A DNA stretch of 64,000 bases from Candidatus Sumerlaea chitinivorans (lineage in GTDB: Bacteria; Sumerlaeota; Sumerlaeia; Sumerlaeales; Sumerlaeaceae), in the NCBI GenBank assembly GCA_003290465.1, contig CP030759.1, positions 784,672-848,671 of the forward strand. Reading direction: 5' to 3'. Shown in pieces: positions 8,090 through 13,346 of the stretch. Positions within the stretch are counted from its first letter, which is position 1. Each line of letters begins with the position of its first letter. The notes below the pieces were generated by a model. The model made no database searches, was not told the DNA's origin, and was given only the letters and a program-made list of their open reading frames with translations. A program made the position numbers and the translations under genes.

Positions 8090-10078
8090 CTAATCTCCTA
8101 CGCGTTGGCCTTTAAGTCTCTGAGTCAAGCGTGTGAAGCTTTGAAACAGACCGCCGATTTCCCTAATTCCGAAAAACTTACAGGCAAGTAGGTACACCAA
8201 AGCGCCAACAATGCTAATCGCGGTGAGTCTTGTCAGTTCAGGCAACTGAAGAGCCCGCAACCATCTAACGTGTGGTCGATCGTCGTAGATCACGAAGCGT
8301 ACATTGGCCGAATCAAAGGTCCCAGCCATCTGGGCTACAAGAAAGGCAGGCTCAGCGGGAGGTGTGGTCCCAGCTGGAATCGGACGCCGATAGACCTCGA
8401 CAAGAAGCTCCGGCGTAGAAGCGCCTCCCGTCCACGTCGCCTGTGCTAAGCGTAGCCAGGCATGACACGTACCACGCGGAGCAAAAACCACGACCACACG
8501 GTTTTTGCTAAAGTCCACAGTGGGAACTGGCGAGTCCTCTTGGCGTAACAAGCTCCAGAAACGTTGGAATTCCTGCTGCTCGCAAAGAACTAACGACCCG
8601 CCTGCATCATAGCGCGCACTGACATGAGCAGGGAACTCCCGCCCTTGTTCCAAGATAGCGATTTTCGGTTGGGTCAGAGTCAAAAGAGGCCACACAAACG
8701 CAGCCATAGCAAGCGATGCCCCCAACATCCGCCCACAATAGAGAAGTAGGTCGGGAAGCAGCGTCCACTCAAGTCGCTTACGCAGTGCGTTCAACGAGAG
8801 AGCAAGGGTGAAGACATACGTCACAGCCGAGCTCAGTGCGATCCCCGGGATGCCAAACCACCTCATGAAAAGGAAATTCAAGGCGATATTCAGGACAACA
8901 CCAGCTATGTTGATCCATGCAGGAGTTCGGGTGTCCTTGAGAGCGTAAAATATTCGAGTCGCAAACACCACAAGAGCGTAGGGGACAATAGAGAGTGCAT
9001 AGAGTGCCAGGAAACGGCTTGTGAATAGACTATCTGCATAGTGGAACTGACCCCGTTCAAACAGAACTCGGGTAATCGGCTCGGCCAGAAGGCAAATACC
9101 AACGGAAATCGGCAGAAGTGCTAAAGTTGTCCACCGAACCCCGCGGCTCATGGTCTCGAGAAACTGCGCGCGGTCATCTTTTGCTGCATGCTCAGCAAGC
9201 GTCGGGTAGAGAACAGTCGCAATCGAAACAGCGATAATGCCGTAGGGCATCATCACAAGCTGAAAGCAAAACGTATACGTGGTGTAGCCGCCCCCAACCG
9301 AATAAAGGAGGTTTGTGCGCACAGCTGTTGCCACAAGGTTGGCAGCTGCCACCACAAGGACCGGAAGGCTTAGGGTCACGACAGATCCCAACAGGGGGTC
9401 CCGAAGCGAAAAGCGTGGCCGGATTGGCATCCGGATCTTGAGAAGCCACGGTACCTGCACCAATGCCATGGCCGCGATGCCTGCTGTCGTCCCAACCGCT
9501 AAGCCCGTTACACCAACCCAACCCATGCGATAGAGAAGTAGCGTAGTGATCACAACAACGTTGTTTAGGATAGGGGCAGCGGCGGTGATTCCGAAAATCT
9601 TGTGAGAGTTCAAAATGGCCATGAAAACAGCATTCAGGCCGTAGAAGAACATTTGGGGTGCGAAGAAGCGAAAGAAGTACACCGATAGCTCACGACTGGC
9701 AGCCGCATGACTGCTTTTTCCGAGTGCTGTCAGTAGGCCAACGATTTGTGGCGCAAGCGCAACTGCAGCTGCCGAAACAATCGCGAGGATTCCTCCCACG
9801 TAACCCAAGAGGAGATTTGCGGTGCGCCACGCTTCCGGCGAACTTTTGCCGTGTCGCTGTTGCTCGCGAACAAGTAGGGGGATCAGGATGGAACTCAGAA
9901 CGCCGCCGATGATGAATTCGTAAAGGATGTTTGGAATGGTGTTTGCGAGCTGATATGCGTCATCGAATCGCCCACTCCCAAGAATGGCCGCAAAGGCCAT
10001 TACTCTTAGCAAGCCCGTGATGCGGCTAAGTAATGTGAGAAACGAAAACGTCGTCGTATGGCGAAGTACTTTGTTCAC
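8090..10078 (-). CDS. murJ: Lipid II flippase MurJ with a periplasmic PrcB-like insert
   Basis: MurJ flips the peptidoglycan precursor lipid II across the cytoplasmic membrane. Residues 1 to about 466 form the MATE-like membrane core, opening with TTTFSFLTLLSRITGLLRVM and containing GRFDDAYQLANTIPN, typical of the family. The product is 662 residues long, against about 510-550 for most MurJ proteins. The excess is a soluble stretch of about 140 residues (roughly 470-608, bases 8255-8671) between the last two membrane helices. With standard MurJ topology that loop faces the periplasm. It contains VDFSKNRVVVVFAPRGTCHA, then LLVEVYRRP and PAFLVAQMAG, which resembles the PrcB C-terminal family. 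The start is GTG 10078. The gene is divergent from the E2-like gene. The MurJ call is firm; the insert's identity is inferred. Confidence 0.9.
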   Translation of the reverse strand: MNKVLRHTTTFSFLTLLSRITGLLRVMAFAAILGSGRFDDAYQLANTIPNILYEFIIGGVLSSILIPLLVREQQRHGKSSPEAWRTANLLLGYVGGILAIVSAAAVALAPQIVGLLTALGKSSHAAASRELSVYFFRFFAPQMFFYGLNAVFMAILNSHKIFGITAAAPILNNVVVITTLLLYRMGWVGVTGLAVGTTAGIAAMALVQVPWLLKIRMPIRPRFSLRDPLLGSVVTLSLPVLVVAAANLVATAVRTNLLYSVGGGYTTYTFCFQLVMMPYGIIAVSIATVLYPTLAEHAAKDDRAQFLETMSRGVRWTTLALLPISVGICLLAEPITRVLFERGQFHYADSLFTSRFLALYALSIVPYALVVFATRIFYALKDTRTPAWINIAGVVLNIALNFLFMRWFGIPGIALSSAVTYVFTLALSLNALRKRLEWTLLPDLLLYCGRMLGASLAMAAFVWPLLTLTQPKIAILEQGREFPAHVSARYDAGGSLVLCEQQEFQRFWSLLRQEDSPVPTVDFSKNRVVVVFAPRGTCHAWLRLAQATWTGGASTPELLVEVYRRPIPAGTTPPAEPAFLVAQMAGTFDSANVRFVIYDDRPHVRWLRALQLPELTRLTAISIVGALVYLLACKFFGIREIGGLFQSFTRLTQRLKGQRVGD

Positions 10079-10232
10079 GCTTGCGCGAAACGATTGACGC
10101 GTTCGTCAGGCTCGGTCAATTTCGATATTGTTAGCTTCACGCGGACTTTCTCGAATAGCAATCCAAGCCGTTTCCTATTAGAGTAACGCTGCGTGTTTGA
10201 ATCTTTATGTCCATTCAGTGGGTGGATTGAGC

Positions 10233-11447
10233 ATGGCCCTAATTAGAATGCCTCGACTAAGCGATTCTATGGAAGAAGGAAAACTCCTGAGATGGTGCGT
10301 TCGACCGGGTGATTTTGTAAAAGTTGGCGACGTCATTGCCGAAATTGAAACTGACAAAGCCAATATGGAGATTGAGGCCGTTGAGCAGGGATGGATTGCT
10401 GAGCTCTTTGGCAAGCCGGGGGATCTGATTCCGGTCGGAGAGCCAATCGTGCGTCTCACTTCGTCTCTTGAGGAGGTTGCGAAAGCTGAGGGGAGTAACG
10501 CCCACGTTCCAGCGGAGACCATTCTTCTTGAAGACATTGTAGGTACTGAGACCGAGCTGCCAACCGATGCGGACGGTTCGAGAGCCTCTTGTTCAGCTGA
10601 CAATGCCTCCCCCCTTGCGAAACAACGCGCTGCGGAGTTGGGAGTTGACATCGCTACGGTGCAGGGGACGGGGCCAGGTGGTCGGGTCATGGAAGCAGAT
10701 GTTGTGGCGGCCGCAAAGGTTGTAAAGCGAAGTGGGATGGTCTCAGCGCAGGAGACTGGCACGATCGCTTTGAGCGAACTCCAACAGGTTGCCACAGAGA
10801 GGCAAAATCAGTCACATGACGAATGCCCACCGCCGTGTTGCGCTCAGATGGTAGATTCACGGGGGCTATCTTTGCGCACGCTGATAAACGCGGGCTCGGT
10901 CGCCGGGTGGCTACCCGCCCTTCAAGCACGTCTCAATCTTCCAGCAGGATGTCATGGCGACCATCTGATTCCGCCAATTGTGGCCAAGGCGGCCGTGCAT
11001 GCGCTGGACAGCGTACCAGAACTTCGCGATCAAATTACTCATCCAGAAGCAACACGAGGAACCGCGGCCTTTGCCGTGCGATGCCGCGATCGTGTGCTTT
11101 ACCCCGTCATGCGAGCAATCCATGCGTTAAGTCTGGGCGAGGCGATTCGCAACTATTGGGAACTACGAGAAAGGTGTTTGGCTGGGTCACTTCTTGAGAG
11201 CGAGTGTCGGGGCGCAGAGTTTGTCGTCGACGATCTGCGCCCGTGGGGTGTGGAAGCACCGACCATTTACGTGCGCCAGCACTCTGTCCCCGTAGTTTGC
11301 GTCGGCGCAGCGGTGGGAATGGAGCCTTCCTTCTGGACCATTTCAGCTTCTTTTGCCACGGGCGACAAGCTTGATCCAGCCTTAGTCGCAGAATTTTTAC
11401 GGTCTTTGCGTTTGTTCCTCGAACAACCCGTGCTCATGTGTCAGTGA
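10233..11447 (+). CDS. Lipoyl-domain E2-like acyltransferase with degenerate catalytic domain
   Basis: The 404-residue protein has the layout of a pyruvate/2-oxoacid dehydrogenase E2 subunit. Residues 1-75 are a lipoyl domain with ETDKANMEIEAV, where the lipoylated lysine would be K42. After a linker comes a peripheral-subunit-binding domain (ASPLAKQRAAELGVDI, then GTGPGGRV). The C-terminal 190 residues align with the E2 inner core, including PIVAKAAVHALDSVPELRDQ. However, where active E2 enzymes have HxxxDG this protein reads GDKLDP, so the catalytic histidine is absent. lipB and lipA follow directly, which makes it a likely lipoylation substrate. No E1 or E3 gene is visible. I chose ATG 10233, where the lipoyl domain begins, over an upstream start at 10197. 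Confidence 0.8.
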   Translation: MALIRMPRLSDSMEEGKLLRWCVRPGDFVKVGDVIAEIETDKANMEIEAVEQGWIAELFGKPGDLIPVGEPIVRLTSSLEEVAKAEGSNAHVPAETILLEDIVGTETELPTDADGSRASCSADNASPLAKQRAAELGVDIATVQGTGPGGRVMEADVVAAAKVVKRSGMVSAQETGTIALSELQQVATERQNQSHDECPPPCCAQMVDSRGLSLRTLINAGSVAGWLPALQARLNLPAGCHGDHLIPPIVAKAAVHALDSVPELRDQITHPEATRGTAAFAVRCRDRVLYPVMRAIHALSLGEAIRNYWELRERCLAGSLLESECRGAEFVVDDLRPWGVEAPTIYVRQHSVPVVCVGAAVGMEPSFWTISASFATGDKLDPALVAEFLRSLRLFLEQPVLMCQ

Positions 11448-11521
11448 GAGAGAAAGGATTTGTTCCGACGAGATGGTTAGCTTCATTGGGCACCCAAGCG
11501 TATAGGCAAGAGACGATACCG

Positions 11522-12259
11522 ATGACGCTTGCTCCCGAAGTCTTATGCGTTGATTCCGGGCTGAACGCGGAATGGTGGGGAACCTGTGATTATTTTGCTG
11601 CGTTGTCGCGCATGGAGGCGCTGCAACATTCACTCATTGAAGGTAGAGGGGAGAACGTTGTCGCTTACCTCGAGCACCTACCAGTGATAACGTATGGCCG
11701 GGCGACTCCACGTGAGGATTTGCCGCGAGTGAAATTCGAATGCCCTGTGGTAGAGGTCCCGCGCGGTGGGCTCGCCACATATCATGGTCCCGGGCAACTC
11801 GTCGGTTATTGTATCGTCAATCTTCGACTCCAACAGGGGGACAGCTCACCGGACATTCATTCATATATTCGCGCGCTCGAGCAGGCGCTTATCGAGTTCA
11901 TACGCGACACGTGGGAACTCCCGGCGGTGCGTAGTCTTGGCCGTACGGGTGTGTGGGTTCACGCCCACAACGGGCAGCTCCGAAAGATCGCGTCCATTGG
12001 CATCCACGTGCGCCGCTGGGTCACCTCTCATGGCTTTGCTCTCAATCTCGCCTCCGACCTCTCGATGTTCCGCAAGATCGTCCCATGTGGCATACGCGAT
12101 GCGGAAATGACTTCTGTAGAACGTGAATTGCGGGAGCGTGGGCGACTCTCTGAGGCGCAGCTTGTGACGCAAGGCGACGCCCTTAGAAGAATAGCGAAGC
12201 TTTTTCATCCCTATCTCGTAACACAATTCCGAGCTGGTGGCTGGCTATCTGAGTCCTAA
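11522..12259 (+). CDS. lipB: Lipoyl(octanoyl) transferase
   Basis: LipB moves the octanoyl group from acyl carrier protein to lipoyl domains in the cytosol. RGGLATYHGPGQLVGYCIVN and VRRWVTSHGFALNLASDL are the family signatures. The catalytic lysine is in LRKIASIG and the catalytic cysteine in IVPCGI, so the enzyme looks active. I chose ATG 11522, giving 245 residues with a normal N-terminus. An in-frame start at 11438 would overlap the end of the E2-like gene and add 28 residues of atypical sequence. The gene lies between a lipoyl-domain protein and lipA, a coherent protein-lipoylation cluster. Confidence 0.94.
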   Translation: MTLAPEVLCVDSGLNAEWWGTCDYFAALSRMEALQHSLIEGRGENVVAYLEHLPVITYGRATPREDLPRVKFECPVVEVPRGGLATYHGPGQLVGYCIVNLRLQQGDSSPDIHSYIRALEQALIEFIRDTWELPAVRSLGRTGVWVHAHNGQLRKIASIGIHVRRWVTSHGFALNLASDLSMFRKIVPCGIRDAEMTSVERELRERGRLSEAQLVTQGDALRRIAKLFHPYLVTQFRAGGWLSES

Positions 12260-12291
12260 AGTAGACGCCTAACCAAGTGACAGAAAGAACA

Positions 12292-13170
12292 ATGCAACAA
12301 GTAGAACTGCGCAGACATCCCGAGTGGATCCGCGCCAAAATGCCTGACACAGGGCACTTTGCGCAGACCGTGTCCATCCTGCGTTCATTGAACCTACACA
12401 CCGTCTGCGAGGAAGCAGAGTGTCCGAATCGCGGCGAATGCTACGCACATCGAACGGCGACTTTTATGATTTTGGGCAATGTCTGCACTCGGCGCTGCTC
12501 ATTTTGTGCAGTCACTAAAGCCAATCCGCAAGCTGCGCCTCCAGATCCGGAAGAGCCAGCACGGCTTGCAGAGGCTGTTGTGCGCTTAGGACTTCAGCAC
12601 GTCGTCATTACCAGCGTGAATCGCGACGACCTGCCGGACCAAGGGGCAGGCCATTTTGCAGCGTGCGTTTGTGCCGTGAAAAGCCGCGTACCAGAAGCGC
12701 GAATCGAGGTCCTAATCCCTGATTTTCGTGGTGACCGTGAATTGCTTCGAACAGTGGTTCATTCACCCATCACTGTCTTGAATCATAACGTGGAGACGGT
12801 TCCCCGACTTTACCCTAAAGTCCGGCCGGGTGCACGCTACGATCGCTCTGTGCTCCTGCTTTACGAGGCAAAGCGCATGCGCCCGGATTTGGTTACGAAG
12901 ACGGGTCTAATGCTTGGCATGGGGGAAACCGCAGATGAGATTCGGGCGGTCCTTGCTGATTTGCGGGAAGTCAACTGTGACGTACTGACGTTGGGCCAAT
13001 ACCTATCCCCTTCTGCCGAAAACGTTCCGGTTGCACGCTACGTTCACCCCACCGAATTTGCGGCTTGGGGGGAGGAGGCCCGTGCGATGGGATTTGCTCA
13101 CGTGGAATCTGGCCCCCTGGTGCGAAGTTCCTATCACGCATGGAGCCACGTGCCGACGAATCGAGGCTGA
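12292..13170 (+). CDS. lipA: Lipoyl synthase (radical SAM)
   Basis: LipA inserts two sulphur atoms into the octanoyl chain placed by LipB. Both iron-sulphur clusters can be read. CEEAECPNRGEC is the auxiliary-cluster CX4CX5C motif, and CTRRCSFC is the radical-SAM CX3CX2C motif. TSVNRDDLPDQGA and the C-terminal RSSY, which provides the conserved serine, are present. About 292 residues is normal. I prefer ATG 12292; an in-frame GTG at 12277 has no better ribosome-binding site. The gene follows lipB by about 30 bases and is surely co-expressed with it. Confidence 0.96.
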   Translation: MQQVELRRHPEWIRAKMPDTGHFAQTVSILRSLNLHTVCEEAECPNRGECYAHRTATFMILGNVCTRRCSFCAVTKANPQAAPPDPEEPARLAEAVVRLGLQHVVITSVNRDDLPDQGAGHFAACVCAVKSRVPEARIEVLIPDFRGDRELLRTVVHSPITVLNHNVETVPRLYPKVRPGARYDRSVLLLYEAKRMRPDLVTKTGLMLGMGETADEIRAVLADLREVNCDVLTLGQYLSPSAENVPVARYVHPTEFAAWGEEARAMGFAHVESGPLVRSSYHAWSHVPTNRG

Positions 13171-13346
13171 TTTGACGCCCATGCCCCAAAGAAGCTTATT
13201 TTTAAAATGCTAAGTCATCGTGGATTTTGATATTTCTTCAGCAACCTCAAGGAATAGTCGAGTTCTCTTAGAAGGGGTCTTGCAAACACAACGTCCCACA
13301 AGATGTTTTCTTGCCTTTATAAACTCCCAGATTGAGGAACTCATCC

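Follow-up and report, generated by a model that had tools for sequence, protein, structure and literature searches.

Two arrangements related to the locus considered here have already been described: dead paralogues of the E2 acyltransferase, of the E3BP type, and the lipoyl relay, in which LipL or LIPT1 passes the lipoyl group on from GcvH. Some organisms pass lipoate through a single relay protein, whereas others assemble it on its final site. On why they differ, an argument reported in part of a review holds the GcvH relay to be a make-do device (PMC7253636) and, for genomes devoid of LipL, passages of another paper allow for as yet unrecognised amidotransferases or a broader LipM (PMC10332631). 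The literature searched gave us no account of a dead E2 encoded within a bacterial lipoate operon, and the main text of a paper on Sumerlaeota (PMC8092238) contains no word starting with "lipo".

The window, i.e., the whole stretch of 64,000 nucleotides that was analysed, spans positions 784672-848671 of the single contig (C1; 3,289,105 bases) of the genome of Candidatus Sumerlaea chitinivorans (G000). The gene for a pseudo-E2 (pE2) lies at 10233-11447 on the forward strand and encodes, from its ATG, a protein of 404 aa made of a lipoyl domain, a linker, a peripheral-subunit-binding domain (PSBD), a second linker and a degenerate E2 core; an in-frame TTG is also present 36 bases upstream of the ATG. 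It is followed on the same strand by lipB (octanoyl transferase, 11522-12259), whose likely start, the ATG at 11522, was inferred from orthologue lengths (the longest lipB ORF starts at a GTG at 11438, within the pE2 gene), and by lipA (lipoyl synthase, 12277-13170), recognised by profile matches; 74 bases separate the pE2 stop from the lipB ATG and 17 bases separate lipB from lipA. The initial annotation, which had the gene directly preceding lipB and lipA without any E1 or E3 neighbours, thus described the window's locus accurately. On the other side of pE2 lies the divergent murJ (8090-10078, reverse strand, assigned by Pfam), a neighbour shared by five genomes of the family (G000, G001, G007, G002 and G003). 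The MurJ of the window bears a C-terminal extension of approximately 190 residues (about 472-662) that has no Pfam match, and the MurJ of L044 is similarly long. A promoter and terminator scan of positions 10080-13340 gave no more signals than shuffled sequence.

The lipoyl domain of pE2 (residues 4-75; 10242-10457, forward strand, as for all parts of the gene) matches PF00364 (Biotin_lipoyl) with 75 bits and holds the predicted lipoylation site, K42 (codon AAA, 10356-10358), in a DKA motif; the surrounding segment reads ETDKANME and the acceptor lysine is invariant across 11 alignment rows, in keeping with the annotation of this domain as intact. No match of pE2 to the GCV_H domain was obtained with Pfam at E 0.001. 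The PSBD occupies residues 125-157 (10605-10703; Pfam E3_binding, 53 bits). The degenerate core, residues 206-404 (10848-11444), is modelled with the E2 core fold and gives a weak Pfam match to 2-oxoacid_dh, 32.6 bits over residues 244-360, that covers only profile positions 59-180 of 232; positions 1-58 are also unrecognised and the loss is thus wider than the active-site motif.

At residues 377-382 (11361-11378), alignment with active E2s bears out the annotated replacement of the active-site HxxxDG: the DHRxxDG of active cores reads GDKLDP in pE2. The comparison of the C-terminal domain with active cores that had been proposed alongside places a histidine in the catalytic column of 31/31 active cores and of none of the six full-length family orthologues, whose residues there are D, A, S, D, P and S, identically in three MAFFT modes of core-only alignments. 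The 31 active cores were picked from the same loci by their HR/HK motif, so that their histidine count is partly a matter of choice and the real test lies in the pE2 column. HxxxDG is missing from all six orthologues, in each of which the DG is also out of register. Since the histidine column separates the active cores from the orthologues in this way, the alignments point to a family-wide defect and not to chance damage to one gene.

A displaced catalytic histidine in the window's pE2 was considered and rejected after all histidines had been listed and the orthologues aligned, none being near the site. That pE2 should still be an acyltransferase, by way of a displaced residue, is extremely improbable: the fold is kept and histidines do occur, six of them at residues 241-350 of the window's protein, two at +3 and +4 from the catalytic column in G007 and one at +12 shared by G001 and G007, so that a displaced histidine is conceivable in these two genomes, but the window's pE2 has none after residue 350, a position 28 residues short of D378 in the catalytic column, the segment around that column is free of histidine in G002, G003 and G005 in the core-only alignment, and the DG register is lost in 6/6. 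An earlier alignment had placed the +12 histidine shared by G001 and G007 in the catalytic column itself, ahead of a gap; core-only alignments with the 31 active cores show the loop to be present. The pE2 of the window is very probably not an acyltransferase.

The AlphaFold2 (AF2) model of the window's pE2 (mean pLDDT 79.4) retains the E2 core fold, with best Z scores of 22.9 to 7b9k and 9j1w and with ten-residue blocks of the core at pLDDT 83-96, except for two at 62 and 65 and the last one at 78; the model of the G002 pE2 (mean pLDDT 68.2) retains it as well (best Z 21.0). Both input alignments held 17 E2s retaining the histidine, and this evidence for the fold is therefore weaker than an independent prediction. 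On these models, a role for pE2 as a structural core partner is possible; the core that would serve it is fast-evolving, however, and core and PSBD alike are absent in 2/8 genomes of the family.

Nor does the cell appear to lack the enzymes themselves. A search of the G000 genome for E1, E3 and a second, active E2, which the initial annotation had called for, recovered all of them, outside the window's span in every case. Two intact E2 cores (286 bits) are found at C1:1678210 and C1:2589839; one of these E2s carries two lipoyl domains and a PSBD and adjoins AceE (L088; 1375 bits, cut-off 860), and the other is one gene away from SucA (L089; 1020 bits to TIGR00239, cut-off 770). One canonical E3 is encoded at C1:2243036 (558 bits, cut-off 408.8) and GcvH at C1:741776. 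With two intact E2s, an E3, AceE and SucA at hand, pE2 is therefore not needed as the acetyltransferase of the cell. No alpha/beta-type E1 was found in G000; besides SucA, PF00676 matched there only weakly and twice, with 29 and 21 bits.

The family was sampled with eight genomes from seven genera and compared with 32 genomes from outside it; G002, G003, G004 and G005 appear to be records L055, L044, L058 and L040. The lipoyl protein is present in 8/8 family genomes, as a full-length pE2 in six (G000, G001, G007, G002, G003 and G005) and as a bare lipoyl ORF in two (88 aa in G004 and 85 aa in G006), from which core and PSBD are missing. It lies upstream of lipB-lipA in 7/8 genomes, either directly (G000, G001, G007 and G004) or with an E3-like gene in between (G002, G003 and G006), and in G005 it stands with its E3-like neighbour on a different contig from lipB-lipA. 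G005, the sole family genome without the lipoyl protein at that place, has an 81-aa 4Fe-4S ferredoxin ORF (L115:7521-7766) directly before lipB-lipA. In a tree of E2s, which includes one junk row (E2_G026, a wrong-strand ORF with a very long branch), the six pE2s form one clade with support 100/99 and long branches, and a single loss is therefore the simplest reading. Across the 32 outside genomes, E2 core matches covering at least 200 profile positions all score at least 196 bits and no comparable dead E2 was seen with PF00198, a search that cores decayed like those of G002 and G007 would escape; the PF00198 scores of the pE2s themselves are 57, 47, 32 and 22 bits in four, with no match in G002 and G007.

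The domains of pE2 evolve at different paces: mean pairwise identity over 15 pairs is 56% for the lipoyl domain, 55% for the PSBD and 29% for the core. A comparison of G001 with G007 gives 37% identity for the pE2 core, 89% for that of the pyruvate dehydrogenase (PDH) E2 and 47% for LipB. Such a fast core would fit a relic in decay, a former PDH E2 left without its E1 partner and surviving as a hitch-hiker in the lipB-lipA operon; the alpha/beta-type E1 not found in G000 fits with this, as does G027, a genome of another family in which an intact E2 adjoins lipA, an arrangement that an ancestor might have had. A relic is nevertheless very unlikely, as the frame is open in 6/6 orthologues over deep divergence, the core has pN of 0.43-0.54 below pS of 0.74-0.79 (pS is saturated; synonymous sites are saturated in most comparisons, and pN was set against pS with no dN/dS for this reason), and the lipoyl domain with its lysine survives even where all else is lost.

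A few other loci deserve mention. G010, a genome of another family that has no E2 core match, encodes an 80-aa lone lipoyl ORF after lipB-lipA (L108:6704-6946), only 27-34% identical to the pE2 lipoyl domains. Contig C139 of G004 carries a 674-aa fused alpha-beta E1 (L153:8786-11112) and directly after it a 101-aa lone lipoyl ORF, with an acylating-aldehyde-dehydrogenase-like gene some 4.5 kb away and no E2 core match on the contig; judged from its genes, it is possibly an E1 system without an E2. Apparent LipB-LipA fusions, with LipB-like and LipA matches in one frame, occur at L111:7437-8852 (G023) and on C729 of G014.

The PSBD had been annotated as intact too; this holds for its fold, with the glycines, the GR and the D kept, but not for the paired basic positions of helix 1, which read K-Q in the window's pE2. 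We take this basic pair to matter for the binding of E1 and E3, Arg135 being presumably the residue concerned in the Bacillus protein. By profile, paired basic residues in helix 1 are found in 0/6 pE2s as against 31/34 intact E2s (Fisher p 2e-5, for rows that are related to each other), and one of the three exceptions among the intact E2s is the E2 beside lipA in G027. Left out of this count beforehand were L014, L024, L026, L030 and L033, of which L026 and L033 gave no ORF, together with the family's 2-oxoglutarate dehydrogenase (OGDH) E2s. In part of a paper, charged side chains of PSBD helix 1 are described as forming an electrostatic zipper to E3 (PMC9974300).

These observations bear on the reading of pE2 as an E3 adaptor comparable to E3BP, whose dead core would join or decorate an active core and whose PSBD would bring E3, above all to OGDH. 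Domain order and the predicted inactivity of the core are as in E3BP, and the model compares with human E3BP (6h60) at Z 21.6, active E2s reaching up to 22.9. The OGDH-type E2 is without a PSBD in 6/6 family genomes tested (G000, G001, G002, G003, G004 and G005), five of which have a pE2 with a PSBD; in the portions of the source drawn upon here, eukaryotic E2o has no PSBD, MRPS36 being proposed in its stead, and the eukaryotic PDH complex uses a dead E2 paralogue (PMC9974300). Yet the basic pair of helix 1 is absent in all six pE2 PSBDs, G004 combines a PSBD-less OGDH E2 with no pE2 PSBD at all, the PDH E2 retains its own PSBD in 7/7 genomes and the lipB-lipA neighbourhood would be left unexplained, so that we regard an adaptor as unlikely. 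Part of the same paper states that prokaryotic E2o retains the PSBD (PMC9974300), to which its loss from this family's OGDH E2 is relevant; G021 and G033, genomes of another family whose E2s group with the family's OGDH-type E2s in the tree, retain the domain. The OGDH-type E2 of G000 (L089:9827-11083) has an Ala/Pro-rich linker (0.36 A+P), as described for eukaryotes.

True as it is for the window's locus, the absence of E3 neighbours does not extend to the family as a whole: in 4/8 genomes, an E3-like protein minus its catalytic residues adjoins the lipoyl protein. These pseudo-E3s, at L083:6879-8303, L086:7159-8583, L087:7281-8735 and L085:9032-10453, are encoded in G002, G003, G005 and G006; a profile search found none in the other four genomes, G000 included. 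They score 125-315 bits against the dihydrolipoyl dehydrogenase model (cut-off 408.8), they have lost the C-terminal HxHP histidines, and the redox-active CxxxxC is replaced in all four by GGAxxHExxxP, with an invariant His-Glu at the site of the redox cysteines. CxxxxC is present in 26 of 29 other E3-like rows, and the three rows without it (L146, L147 and L151) stem from ORFs that were mispicked or truncated; L146 does show the motif in a separate reading, while L147 and L151 are unread. A profile built from the four pseudo-E3 sequences gives 645-755 bits for its own members and at most 267 bits for all else in the 40 genomes; in the tree, they form one group apart from 26 E3 rows, and owing to their long branches the position of this group is unsure. 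A soluble transhydrogenase (SthA), which we considered on the assumption that the HxxTIP-like motif of the pseudo-E3s might mark one, was set aside, as all four score better against the model for dihydrolipoyl dehydrogenase.

In the genome of G006, 66% complete, no E2 core, no canonical E3 and, a match to the lipoyl ORF itself apart, no GcvH was found, and its three PF00364 matches are the 85-aa lipoyl ORF, a 196-aa frame that is presumably a biotin carrier and one match under the cut-off; the 85-aa ORF is likely to be the only lipoyl acceptor among these three. It stands with the pseudo-E3, lipB and lipA, and we estimate the probability that the PDH, OGDH, GCV and E3 loci are all missing by chance at about 1%, if independent at that completeness. 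This speaks for a carrier that is its own end user, the lipoylated domain serving a reaction of its own, sometimes with a pseudo-E3 as partner, and handing nothing to the E2s. The single grouping of the pseudo-E3s and their invariant His-Glu would fit a conserved partner, and a precedent is provided by LarG, an H-protein-like carrier of Pelobacter for which part of a paper proposes an electron-transfer role of its own (PMC3543383). Against an end user, the pseudo-E3 was not found in half of the family, the window's genome included, neither a partner enzyme nor a reaction came to light and G006 is one incomplete genome; such a carrier is, in our judgement, rather doubtful.

Another protein of possible relevance to the route of the lipoyl group is an LplA-like protein, lig2, which is encoded besides LipB in 8/8 family genomes. 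Outside the family, a comparable score was obtained in 1/32 genomes (G012, 153 bits), the others giving at most 49 bits or no match. Pairwise identity is 41-54% over seven of the eight sequences; the gene is divergent from aceE in G000 and G001 and lies on a contig without any E2 found in G004 and G006. The nearest PDB sequences of lig2 are lipoate-protein ligases (E 1e-11), with a weaker match to lipoyltransferase 1 (2e5a; E 2e-5). All seven lig2 sequences read (that of G007 is unread) contain QGPGC where three aligned ligase chains have a D-x-(G/N)-N-like motif. In passages of the review mentioned above, the C-terminal domain of the ligases is required for lipoyl-AMP synthesis, LIPT1 is a half-ligase working as a transferase, and the assignment of function by sequence within the LplA-type fold is called perilous (PMC7253636). 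As lig2 is 238-248 aa long in six of the seven read (the ORF of G003 being longer on its N side), there is no room in it for that C-terminal domain and, by analogy with LIPT1, lig2 is plausibly a transferase.

The claim that pE2 is a lipoyl carrier rather than an acetyltransferase is thus well supported by the sequences: HxxxDG and the catalytic histidine are present in 0/6 orthologues and two genomes keep the lipoyl domain only. The lipoyl domain is constant and precedes lipB-lipA in 7/8 genomes, which argues for a part played in lipoate assembly itself or by way of it and makes a relay the favoured reading. We tentatively prefer, short of confidence, the view that pE2 may be a dedicated lipoyl carrier for the LipB-LipA machinery, a dead E2 paralogue that the family has retained from its ancestor onwards. 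LipB would place octanoate on K42 of pE2, LipA would insert two sulfurs at the K42-bound octanoyl group and lig2 would then pass the lipoyl group from pE2 to the working E2s, just as, in the relay already described, LipL and LIPT1 pass it on from GcvH; the pE2 core would be a fold retained for assembly and no enzyme. A more elaborate version, which we hold to be possible at best, is that the dead E2 and, in half of the genomes, a dead E3 were turned into a lipoate-building scaffold for LipB and LipA, served by an LplA-derived transferase and shrinking to a bare lipoyl domain in the end lineages, that is, a relay hub not derived from GcvH.

Several observations weigh against a relay through pE2. 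Since the lipoyl ORF itself is the sole acceptor found in G006, incomplete as this genome is, a relay there would appear to lack a delivery target; the remaining seven genomes possess GcvH, which usually serves as the hub; gene order is no proof of a shared pathway, and in G005 pE2 and lipB-lipA are on separate contigs; and a free lipoyl carrier leaves the folded core and the PSBD, kept in 6/8 genomes, unexplained. Were the relay reading true, an E2-derived hub with its natural stages (a full dead E2, the same with a dead E3, a bare domain) would make the question of why lipoate is relayed testable.

In comparison with E3BP/PDHX of the eukaryotic PDH complex, pE2 shares the order of lipoyl domain, PSBD and core, the loss of the transferase histidine and the retained E2 fold, as far as E3BP is described in part of the source (PMC10156792), but is bacterial, has lost the basic pair of its PSBD, is encoded with lipB-lipA and has shrunk in two genomes to its lipoyl domain alone; the likeness is one of architecture, the E2 and pE2 trees having held no eukaryotic sequences. 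Active E2p of the mitochondrial type (TIGR01349) is the best NCBIfam match of pE2, spanning residues 4-402, but at 126.6 bits it misses the cut-off of 445 and the active-site motif is gone. With the GcvH/GCSH hubs (LipM-LipA-LipL and LIPT2-LIAS-LIPT1), pE2 has in common an acceptor tied to an octanoyl transferase and a lipoyl synthase, together with an LplA-like protein of the size of a catalytic domain; by contrast, pE2 derives from an E2 and not from an H protein, GcvH is encoded besides it in 7/8 genomes, and the relay is here a proposal. Finally, LbpA of sulfur oxidisers, encoded with sLpl(AB), LipS1/S2 and LipT, is likewise a carrier encoded with assembly genes and sometimes beside a flavoprotein-like gene, according to sections of the source (PMC10332631); LbpA, however, resembles GcvH, and LipT is a flavoprotein regarded as a candidate for delivering electrons (PMC10332631), whereas pE2 is E2-derived and its assembly genes are lipB and lipA.
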